Of a stretch of 64,000 nucleotides of DNA, positions 43,718-47,214 are shown piece by piece. The stretch is taken from positions 2,976,001 to 3,040,000 of the forward strand of contig NZ_PEBF01000001.1 of NCBI RefSeq assembly GCF_002742625.1, written 5' to 3'. How positions within the stretch are numbered: the first letter of the stretch is position 1; each line of letters begins with the position of its first letter. Both the position numbers and the translations under genes were made by a program. A model generated the notes under the pieces. It was not told the origin of the DNA. It worked only from the letters and a program-made list of their open reading frames with translations, and made no database searches. The stretch comes from Caulobacter sp. FWC2 (GTDB taxonomy: Bacteria > Pseudomonadota > Alphaproteobacteria > Caulobacterales > Caulobacteraceae).

Positions 43718-44575
43718 ATGATCGACACCCAAACCCCTCAGACGAAGTCCACCCCGGCCGAACTGGACGTCACCCCGCGCGACATCCGCTTCGACTTGAC
43801 AGAGGCCCAGAAGGGCCACTGGCTGGGCGGCGATCCCGTCGGCACGGCGGTGTTCAACGCCCTGTCCCTGACCTTCCCGGACGGCGAGCGCCTGTTCATG
43901 GACGCGGTGCGCAACTACCGCCACTTGCTGACCGGCAAGCTGCTGGACGACGCCCGGAACTTCATCGCCCAGGAAGCCATCCACTCGCGCGAACACCATC
44001 AGCTGAACAGCCTGATCGACCGCGACCGCTACCCGGTCGCCGAGATCGAGGAGACCGTCCGCGGCCGCGTGAAGATGGCCCGCGAGCGCGGCAAGATGGC
44101 CATGCTGCTGTCGACCATCGCCCTGGAGCACTTCACGGCGATGATGGCCGAGATGCACGTGCGCCATCAGGACCTGTTCGACAACGCCCATCCCGAGGTC
44201 GAAAAGCTGTGGCGCTGGCACGCCATGGAAGAGACCGAGCACAAGGCCGTCGCCTACGACGTCTTCATGGTCGCGACCAAGGACTGGTCGCCGCGTCGCC
44301 GTTACATGATGCGCTGCCGGGCGATGTTCTTCGTGACCATCATGTTCACCCGCAACATCAGCCGCTACGCCGCCCGCCTGCTGGAGGCCGACGGCTATTC
44401 GCCCAAGGCGGCGCTGAAGGCGGTCAGTGCGTACGTGTGGGGCAATCCCGGCATCTTCCGTCGAGGCTGGAAGACCTACTTCGCCTGGTACCGCCCCGGC
44501 TTCCACCCCTGGGACCAGGACGACCGCGCGGCGTTCGCTGGGTGGAAGGCGGAGTTCGACGCGGCGGCGGCTTAA
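43718..44575 (+). CDS. PF10118-type metal-dependent hydrolase family protein
   Basis: A 285-residue protein with FIAQEAIHSREHHQLNSLID, IALEHFTAMMAEMHVRH and WRWHAMEETEHKAVAYDVF, a di-iron-like set of Glu/His typical of PF10118, and hydrophobic C-terminal helices. Members are annotated as metal-dependent hydrolases, but the Glu/His spacing (E..H..E..H) resembles ferritin-like oxygen-activating proteins. The reaction is unproven. It is divergent from the TetR gene. Confidence 0.87.
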   Translation: MIDTQTPQTKSTPAELDVTPRDIRFDLTEAQKGHWLGGDPVGTAVFNALSLTFPDGERLFMDAVRNYRHLLTGKLLDDARNFIAQEAIHSREHHQLNSLIDRDRYPVAEIEETVRGRVKMARERGKMAMLLSTIALEHFTAMMAEMHVRHQDLFDNAHPEVEKLWRWHAMEETEHKAVAYDVFMVATKDWSPRRRYMMRCRAMFFVTIMFTRNISRYAARLLEADGYSPKAALKAVSAYVWGNPGIFRRGWKTYFAWYRPGFHPWDQDDRAAFAGWKAEFDAAAA

Positions 44576-44604
44576 CTCGACCCATAGTTGATTTACTGCG
44601 AGCC

Positions 44605-44949
44605 ATGCCTCAGCTTTGGGGCATGGTGCCGCGCGACGCTTCCATCGCCGTCTACATGATGGCCAACAAGCCCTACGGCACGCTCTACATCGGCGTGACG
44701 AGCCTGTTTGAGGCGAGGATCGTTCAGCATCGCGAGAAGCTGATCAAAGGCTTCACCCAGAAATACGGACTCACGCGGCTCGTCTGGTACGAGACCCATG
44801 AAGACATGACCGTCGCCATCCATCGCGAGAAGCGGCTGAAGGAATGGCCCAGGCAGTGGAAGATCAATCTGATCGAGCAGGACAACCCGCGCTGGGATGA
44901 CCTCTATGATCAGGTGCTGAACTGGACGCCCGTACCGCGCCAGTTTTAG
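44605..44949 (+). CDS. Small GIY-YIG endonuclease
   Basis: A 114-residue single-domain GIY-YIG nuclease of the COG2827 type. AVYMMANKPYGTLYIGVTS is the GIY-YIG core, EARIVQHREKLIKGFTQKYG holds the catalytic Arg and His, and VAIHREKRLKEWPRQWKINL contains the metal-binding Glu; DNPRWDDL ends the domain. ATG 44605 is used; ATG 44623 is equally possible. It is 29 bp after the PF10118 gene and 14 bp before a perfect 31-bp inverted repeat, a likely genome-repeat neighbour. Confidence 0.9.
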   Translation: MPQLWGMVPRDASIAVYMMANKPYGTLYIGVTSLFEARIVQHREKLIKGFTQKYGLTRLVWYETHEDMTVAIHREKRLKEWPRQWKINLIEQDNPRWDDLYDQVLNWTPVPRQF

Positions 44950-44962
44950 CCCCCAACCAACT

Positions 44963-45078
44963 CCGTCATCCCGCGCTTTATGCGCGGGACCCATGGTTCA
45001 GCTTCCGCGTGAGAGCCTAGGCCCGCACTTCACTTGCGGCGGGCAAATGGGTCCCGCGCATAAAGCGCGGGATGACGG
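44963..45078. repeat. 31-bp perfect inverted repeat element with internal hairpins
   Basis: Arms 44963-44993 and 45048-45078 are exact reverse complements (31 of 31). Each arm contains its own hairpin, CCCGCGC-(5)-GCGCGGG, and begins CCGTCATCC. The 54-bp spacer holds another small palindrome (GCCTAGGC, near 45016). The structure resembles BIME/REP-type intergenic repeats. It lies between the GIY-YIG gene and the end of glyS, converging ends, so it may also act as a bidirectional terminator. Confidence 0.8.
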
Positions 45079-45105
45079 TGCTTGTTGTTGGAATGGAGCT
45101 AAAAG

Positions 45106-47214
45106 CTACCCCGCAATCAACCCGAAGTCCGCCACCCTACCCATTTCATCCCGCACCGCCGCCAGGGTCCGCAGGCGGTTGTCGCGGTGCTCGGGTTCGT
45201 TGACGAAGACGCCGTCGAGATAGGCGTCGACCGGGCCGCGCAGCTCGGCCAGCTGGGTCATGGCGCCGGTGAAGTCCTCGGCGTCCAGGGCGTCCTTCAG
45301 CGGCTTGGCCAGCAGGCGCAGGGCGTTGTAGAGGCCCACCTCGGCGTCGCTGTCGGCGGCGGGTTCCTCGGGAGCCCCGACCGGCAGAGCGCCCTTCTTC
45401 TCCTCGGCCTTGAGGATGTTGGAGGCGCGCTTGTAGCCGGCCATCAGGCTCTTACCGTCGTCGGTCTTCAGGAAGCCGTCCAGCGCCTCGACCCGCGCGA
45501 CGATCCGCGCCAGGTCGTCGTCGCCCAGGGCGAAGACGGCGTCGACAAGGTCGTGGCGCTTGCCTTGGTCGCGGAGGGTGACCTTCAGGCGGTCGGCGAA
45601 GAAGGCGATCAGGTCGATAACAACGGTCGGATTGAGCGGCACCGGGCGGCCGTTTTGCAAACCGCCCTTGTCATCCACGTCAAAGAGCGTGCGATCGCCA
45701 TTCGCCGCTTCATGCGTCCGCTCGTGAGCGGGCTTCAAGACCTGAGACAGCGGGAAGCGCTTGTTAGATTCCAGGATGATCCGGATCACGCCCAGCGCCG
45801 CGCGACGAAGGGCATAGGGATCCTTCGAGCCTGTGGGCTTCTCATCGATCGCGAAGAAGCCCACCAGCGTGTCCAGCTTATCCGCCAGCGCCACAGCCAC
45901 GCTCACCGGCGCGGTCGGCACAGCATCCGAGGGGCCTTGCGGCTTGTAGTGGTCGCGCACAGCGTCAGCGATCTCGCCGTCCAGGCCGAAGGTGCGGGCG
46001 TAGTAGCCGCCCATGATGCCTTGCAGCTCAGGGAACTCGCCGACCATCTGCGAGGCGAGGTCCGCCTTGGCGAGGCGCGCGGCTTCCTTGGTCTTTTCGA
46101 CATCGGCGCCGACCAGCGGGGCGATCTCGCCGGCCAGGGCGACGATGCGCTCGACGCGCTGGGCCATCGTGCCCAGCTTGGCGTGGAAGGTGACGCCGTT
46201 CAGCTTTTCCAGCCACGGCTCGAAGCCGACCTTGACGTCCTCGTCCCAGAAGAAGCGAGCGTCGGACAGGCGCGAGGACAGCACCTTGGCGTTGCCGGCC
46301 GCGATCACCGCGCCGCCGTCGGCCGCCTGGATGTTGGCGATGGTGATGAAGTGCGGGGCCAGGCCCTCTTCCCCGGCCTTGCGGACGGCGAAGTACTTCT
46401 GGTGCGTGCGCATCGAGGTGCGGATCACCTCGGGCGGCAGGCTGAGGAACACCGGGTCCATGTCGCCCAGCACCGGGGTGGGCCATTCAGCCAGGCCGGC
46501 GACTTCTTCCAGCAGGCCCTGGTCCTCGACCAGTTCCAGGTGACGCGCGAAGCACAGGGTCTTGCAGCCTTCGAGGATGCGCTGCTTGCGCTCCTCGACG
46601 TCGAGCACGACGTAGTGGGCTTCCAGACCGGCCGCGTATTCGTCGAAGTCACGCGCCACGAATGGCTGGGCGTCGCCCATGAAGCGGTGGCCCTCGGAGA
46701 TGTCCCCGCTCGGGATGCCCTCGATGGCGAACGGCACGACCTCGCGGTCGAGCACGCACAGGATGCGCTTGAGCGGACGCACCCAGCGCAGCTTCTTGGT
46801 TCCCCAGATCATCGACTTGGGCCAAGGGAAGCCGCGAACGATCGCCTCGACCATCTCGGCGACGATCTCCGGCGTCGGGCGGCCCTTCTTCTCGATGAAG
46901 GCCATGTAGACGCCGTCGCGCTCTACCAGCTGGTCCTGGGTCAGGCCGGCCTTGCGCAGGAAGCCTTCCATGGCTTGCGGCGGGGCGCCGACGCGGGGGC
47001 CTTTCAGCTCTTCCTTGCGGTCGGCCTGGGCTAGCGGCAGGCCTTCGACCACCAGGGTCAGGCGGCGAGGGCCGGCGAAGGTCTTCAGCGCCTCGGGCAG
47101 GAAGCCGGCGGCGGCCAGGTGCTCGCGCGCCATGCGCTCCAGGTCCTTGGCGGCCTGGGCCTGCATACGGGCGGGGATCTCTTCCGAGAACAGTTCGAGG
47201 AGAAGTTGGGGCAT
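45106..47214 (-). CDS. glyS: Glycyl-tRNA synthetase beta subunit
   Basis: A 702-residue beta subunit. It opens with MPQLLLELFSEEIPARMQAQAAKDLERM and has the family segments FLRKAGLTQDQL, FPWPKSMIWG, VIRTSMRTHQKYFAVR, SSRLSDARFFWDED and a C-terminal anticodon-binding helical domain (VNEPEHRDNRLRTLAAV). With GlyQ it charges tRNA-Gly. It follows glyQ by 6 bp. Confidence 0.97.
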   Translation of the reverse strand: MPQLLLELFSEEIPARMQAQAAKDLERMAREHLAAAGFLPEALKTFAGPRRLTLVVEGLPLAQADRKEELKGPRVGAPPQAMEGFLRKAGLTQDQLVERDGVYMAFIEKKGRPTPEIVAEMVEAIVRGFPWPKSMIWGTKKLRWVRPLKRILCVLDREVVPFAIEGIPSGDISEGHRFMGDAQPFVARDFDEYAAGLEAHYVVLDVEERKQRILEGCKTLCFARHLELVEDQGLLEEVAGLAEWPTPVLGDMDPVFLSLPPEVIRTSMRTHQKYFAVRKAGEEGLAPHFITIANIQAADGGAVIAAGNAKVLSSRLSDARFFWDEDVKVGFEPWLEKLNGVTFHAKLGTMAQRVERIVALAGEIAPLVGADVEKTKEAARLAKADLASQMVGEFPELQGIMGGYYARTFGLDGEIADAVRDHYKPQGPSDAVPTAPVSVAVALADKLDTLVGFFAIDEKPTGSKDPYALRRAALGVIRIILESNKRFPLSQVLKPAHERTHEAANGDRTLFDVDDKGGLQNGRPVPLNPTVVIDLIAFFADRLKVTLRDQGKRHDLVDAVFALGDDDLARIVARVEALDGFLKTDDGKSLMAGYKRASNILKAEEKKGALPVGAPEEPAADSDAEVGLYNALRLLAKPLKDALDAEDFTGAMTQLAELRGPVDAYLDGVFVNEPEHRDNRLRTLAAVRDEMGRVADFGLIAG

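Follow-up and report, generated by a model that had tools for sequence, protein, structure and literature searches.

Most of the small GIY-YIG nuclease genes examined here adjoin CGTC-type palindromic repeats or lie between them. This association of gene and repeat is real and apparently undescribed in the open-access literature, preprints excluded: among the papers listed by the searches, none connects a GIY-YIG nuclease with REPs in its title or the start of its abstract. The most likely reading of the comparative data is a REP/REPIN-like selfish system in which a GIY-YIG nuclease replaces RAYT, with cleavage and mobilisation as the steps we infer. From the sequences, the small nuclease is predicted to cut the neighbouring CGTC-type hairpins and so to disperse them, gene and repeats together forming a selfish element of two parts, an account that we consider probable.

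The locus that led to this proposal lies in a window of 64,000 nucleotides, the whole stretch of Caulobacter sp. FWC2 DNA that was analysed; the 5.5-Mb genome containing it is coded G000. The relevant features are as follows.

44603 to 44626, + strand: hairpin CCATGCC...GGCATGG across both candidate start codons, from the sequence and the fold of the 37-nt start region
44623 to 44949, + strand: single-domain GIY-YIG nuclease gene of 108 aa (114 aa from an alternative upstream start at 44605), from PF01541, the motif residues and the structural model
44950 to 44962, + strand: G-free tract immediately 5' of arm 1, CCCCCAACCAACT
44963 to 44994, + strand: CGTC-type REP arm 1 (CGTCA, 8-bp stem, 5-nt loop, CCCA tail)
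44995 to 45046, no strand: dimer spacer, with GGTTCAGCTT and GCGGCGG(G/A)CA-type motifs that recur in other dimers of the same genome
45047 to 45078, - strand: CGTC-type REP arm 2, head-to-head with arm 1
45079 to 45092, - strand: G-poor tract immediately 5' of arm 2, read on the - strand

The window protein has a single PF01541 domain (48.9 bits in a Pfam profile search, against a cut-off of 22.6) with the Y, YIG, R, H, E and N residues by which GIY-YIG proteins of the COG2827/UPF0213 kind are recognised; we take COG2827 to be the label for the family. Across alignments of 21 and 23 proteins, the Y, Y-x-G, R, H, E and N residues show no or almost no variation. Among named relatives of the gene, the closest are in Caulobacter, and its neighbours are a PF10118 gene on one side and the convergent glyS on the other. 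The original prediction of a 114-residue GIY-YIG gene was right as to the domain: relatives begin at the ATG at 44623, giving 108 aa, which makes its start at 44605 doubtful. The TAG stop codon ends at 44949. The 37-nt start region has a predicted fold of -19.3 kcal/mol; a start-codon hairpin was rejected as a general family feature, being strong in the window gene and variable among other loci. PADLOC returned no match for the two proteins submitted, and one of three proteins matched in NCBIfam, with a score below the cut-off. The predicted structure of the window nuclease (pLDDT 86.9) resembles UPF0213 BH0048, Slx1 and UvrC, with E-values that are weak throughout, the lowest being 0.003. Solved single-domain UPF0213 proteins (PDB 1zg2 and 1ywl), compared by sequence and fold, are its best PDB sequence matches and among its best fold matches, and repeats are not described for them in the literature consulted. 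The likeness to Slx1 and to the N-terminal GIY-YIG domain of UvrC is one of fold, whereas these are multi-domain or partnered repair enzymes.

The palindromic element beside the gene is 116 bp long and begins 13 bp past the nuclease stop codon. An inverted repeat with self-folding arms had been proposed here, and the arms at 44963-44994 and 45047-45078 are indeed exact reverse complements, over 32 nt. Within each arm the hairpin reads TCCCGCGC-TTTAT-GCGCGGGA and is followed by CCCA; Rfam has no match within 44500-45300. Judged by sequence, the window repeats match the CGTC-tagged REP superfamily. The available part of a survey of that superfamily (Di Nocera, De Gregorio, Rocco 2013, PMC3733652) gives tag variants TGTC/CCTC, a stem of 8-9 bp, a loop of 4-5 nt and a CCA-type tail, in head-to-head dimers found mainly in alphaproteobacteria, with C. 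crescentus CGTC-positive. The same part of the survey presents the superfamily as apparently without a dedicated transposase, and the string 'GIY' is absent from its text. The arms of the window type, called type A, share the tag, the stem and loop, the CCA-like tail and the predominant head-to-head dimers. At stem positions 1-2, where the superfamily has complementary A/T residues, type-A arms have T-A at the first pair only, and the next outer A faces C. The difference from the published description is the GIY-YIG family tied to the repeats here. A count of stem covariation (8 of 8 pairs with double changes, 152 of 152 cells paired) was given little weight, being biased because its 19 arms were hand-picked after a hairpin filter.

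The type-A arm is far from unique to the locus, which answers the question the original prediction had left to a genome-wide count. At up to 3 mismatches it has 29 copies in G000 and a reversed-pattern control has 0, so its number is far beyond chance. All except one single arm (28 of 29) form 14 head-to-head dimers of about 112 bp, and the tag is CGTC in 28 of 29 and CGCC in 1. A second repeat family, type B (GCTCATCCCCGCGAAAGCGGGGACCC), occurs at 14 loci in G000, 13 of them gene-less; its arms deviate from the CGTC superfamily in their 7-bp stem and CTC-type tag. The other small GIY-YIG gene of G000, the paralogue L030 and the sole one found, sits between two inverted type-B arms, and at one type-B locus a type-A dimer is nested inside the type-B dimer. 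A third GIY-YIG match in G000 is a 693-aa open frame, presumably UvrC, with no flanking inverted repeat.

RAYT-REP/REPIN systems consist of GTAG-tagged REPs and a Y1/HUH transposase. The analogy to them that was drawn from the window fits the anatomy: hairpin doublets are inverted and dispersed, single-gene copies of an enzyme are flanked by the same repeats, and gene-less copies lie elsewhere. However, the enzyme here is a GIY-YIG protein without HUH or tyrosine-transfer chemistry, and the tag is CGTC rather than of the GTAG/GGAG type. A search for Y1/RAYT transposases (PF01797) gave 0 matches in G000. Such a transposase is present in 22 of the 75 Caulobacter genomes searched, and CGTC arms adjoin none of the 10 Y1 loci examined (of 33 Y1 matches listed). 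Another type of inverted repeat, mostly with GGGGACA-like ends, is found at 7 of these 10 loci (L336, L337, L339-L342 and L344).

The association extends well beyond the window genome. A genus search gave 173 nuclease matches, fragments included, in 75 Caulobacter genomes, with a match in 65 and 0-7 per genome. From these, 91 loci were taken: for each of 30 genomes its best locus, in addition L030 as the paralogue, and then the 60 matches that scored next highest, with one short-flank match skipped and lower-scoring matches left out. Another 110 loci came from named genomes and a class search; they include the window itself (L233) and duplicate some genes of the genus set. An inverted pair was defined by arms no shorter than 18 nt, with an identity of 85% or more, within 260 bp of the gene or spanning it. 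Such pairs occur at 84 of these 110 loci versus 7 of 287 shifted windows. Over both sets, 158 of 201 loci have an inverted palindrome pair flanking or spanning the nuclease gene and 43 have none, and the repeats lie variably upstream, downstream or around the gene. A gene-end test that added phylum-level loci, kept to loci with 260 bases on both sides and used other gene ends in the same loci as its control bore out the link between arm and gene that had been put forward for checking: inverted pairs accompany 100 of 131 nuclease genes, whereas of the 86 control genes 10 have one (Fisher p 4e-22), and the nuclease figure is 16 of 25 in the phylum-level loci alone. Among the positive loci are ones from Sphingomonas, Brevundimonas, Shinella, Maricaulis, Undibacterium and records labelled Chloroflexota and Planctomycetota, and these groups also contributed some negative loci; many of the positive loci from outside Caulobacter are metagenome bins whose labels are taken as recorded. 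Dispersed gene-less copies were counted in Caulobacter only.

Gene and repeats are each present or absent at orthologous sites. Downstream of glyS, both the gene and a window-type dimer are absent from G029, G012 and G013 (the last two carry another short palindrome), a dimer without the gene is found in G069, the gene with a dimer in G000 and G061, and the gene with two dimers in G045 and also in G073, where the gene is split. This region (window 44576-45105; loci L124-L142) holds palindromic repeat families that differ among Caulobacter species. Elsewhere, flanks are contiguous without the dimer in G029 at 5 of the 7 sites tested, out of 13 prepared. Of 113 pairs of nucleases from different genomes with an identity of 80% or more, 43 share their context and 70 do not, with short contigs possibly inflating the latter. 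No clean insertion junction was found in 10 plus 6 site pairs and no target duplication was resolved, the sites being diverged or deleted. At the site of a G045 dimer, G072 retains a single perfect hairpin (L357), as if by deletion between repeated half-arms, and a similar hairpin with poorly aligned flanks at another site in G069 (L363) is a probable deletion product; decay thus also shapes the repeats. A further dispersed repeat (up to ~110 bp, 82-95% identical), seen in the flank of L353 at query positions 1972-2081, has many copies in G026, G070, G063, G072 and G043.

The nuclease and its adjacent arm co-vary. Arms share a frame of tag, stem, loop and tail, and their stems vary: an automatic hairpin parser, which underlies the distance tests as well and misread some arms, distinguishes 64 stems in 148 arms. 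Nuclease distance correlates with arm distance over 132 loci, which are the 148 with a parsed arm minus identical nucleases (Mantel r 0.36; 0 of 2000 permutations as high), and within Caulobacter alone over 68 loci (r 0.50; 0 of 5000 permutations as high). For 40 loci with a second nuclease in the same genome, the arm is nearer to the arm of the nearest nuclease elsewhere than to that of its sibling in 36, with the reverse in 3 and a tie in 1. Physical linkage of gene and arm alone could yield such co-variation; because linkage can contribute, unlinked copies were counted too.

Genome copy numbers, which include the dimers adjoining a nuclease gene, track the cognate nuclease for one arm type and argue against strict dependence for another. 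The 7 genomes with a window-type nuclease have 2, 18, 19, 21, 22, 22 and 24 window-type arms; of the 68 without one, 54 have none and 3 have at least 10 (p 3e-7 over 75 related genomes, phylogeny ignored). In two of the 7, G022 (L038) and G073 (L050), the window-type nuclease gene is apparently broken, by a stop or a split frame. Arms of the TTCCCGCC type number 10-37 in all 8 genomes with their cognate nuclease and reach at least 10 copies in 13 of the 67 genomes without it. No cognate was found in the five genomes richest in these arms (G009, G006, G003, G074 and G033; 46-98 copies), in a search that left out one more distant family member each in G003, G009 and G033; this argues against a strict one-to-one dependence. 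In copy-rich genomes of this kind the nuclease may have been lost after expansion, a related nuclease may act in trans, or the repeats may have another mover. The 10 genomes without any nuclease match have at most 12 TTCCCGCC arms and at most 7 window-type arms.

These cognate-less genomes are also among the reasons to consider a homing-type passenger, in which the nuclease cuts REP dimers made otherwise, recombination between repeats copies the gene in, and the repeats are landing sites. The dimer-gene-dimer layouts of G045 and other genomes, and a glyS REP site that hosts different nuclease types in different species, would suit such a passenger. It accounts less readily for the REP-gene-REP layout, in which a single arm of the gene's own family stands on either side of it, or for dispersed window-type copies that track the presence of the cognate nuclease. 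It would, moreover, leave the repeats of G000 with no Y1 enzyme to move them, Y1 being the transposase class searched. On balance we think it unlikely, while still the strongest of the competing accounts.

Under the preferred reading, a two-part selfish element spread by its nuclease, several steps can be proposed. The nuclease would recognise an arm in its folded state, whether extruded or single-stranded, close to the CGTC tag and would nick it. GIY-YIG enzymes hydrolyse DNA, and no rejoining activity is known for them; a copy entering a new, G-poor site between genes would therefore need host repair or replication for its completion. Among the members of such a system, head-to-head dimers without a gene would be non-autonomous, and REP-gene-REP or dimer-gene-dimer units autonomous. 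At both ends of the dimers, a G-poor tract of ~14 nt immediately precedes the CGTC tag on its 5' side. Over 240 flanks of 120 dimers, many of them related, G content outside the tags is 1-11% at positions 5-12 from the tag C versus about a third beyond 25 nt; in G000 the values are 9.6% versus 40.6% for type A and 10.8% versus 38% for type B. The G-poor flank suggests a target or recognition preference. Complementarity between the two flanks of a dimer beyond composition was considered and rejected (z about 1, not significant), and the G-poor tract remains.

GTTC-N7-GTTC boxes, which we take to be the alphaproteobacterial LexA site, occur within 150 bp upstream of the gene at 33 of 199 nuclease loci (4 of the 33 being second records of the same gene) versus 1 of 1149 control windows. 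One lies upstream of the paralogue L030 and none upstream of the window gene, and SOS control of some nuclease copies is possible. A more specific model, to which we give an even chance, casts small and often SOS-controlled GIY-YIG nucleases as the movers of CGTC-tagged REPs: in this transposition-like system a purely hydrolytic, structure-specific enzyme would copy hairpin dimers via host repair, and enzyme and stem would be co-evolving matched pairs.

The same boxes are compatible with a repair role too, which counts against the spreading model. The nuclease could be a DNA-repair or anti-cruciform enzyme, with the adjoining palindromes as its regulatory or terminator elements. The weak fold matches include Slx1, whose entries describe action on branched DNA, and the available part of a 2007 paper (PMC1839093) reports that C. 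crescentus has three small COG2827 genes whose role is unknown, one of them carrying an SOS box. Regulatory elements would nevertheless be expected neither to lack a fixed position relative to the gene nor to have many copies elsewhere in the genome, and the gene itself is patchy, with its 0-7 matches per genome in many contexts; we regard a repair role as the full explanation as improbable. That the association is a by-product of a shared preference for the same intergenic regions is very improbable: gene and repeats are both intergenic at the window locus, and in other Caulobacter the orthologous region 3' of glyS is home to several REP-like families, but inverted pairs are scarce at other gene ends in the same loci (10 of 86), CGTC arms are absent from the Y1 loci examined (0 of 10), and arm type co-varies with nuclease type.

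The selfish-element reading thus names a candidate enzyme family for the CGTC REPs, left without a dedicated transposase by the published survey in its available part (PMC3733652). Matched enzyme-repeat pairs are now on hand, two of them in one genome, and through this pairing a function may emerge for small nucleases whose role has been unknown. Confirmation would place GIY-YIG nucleases beside HUH enzymes as movers of REPs.
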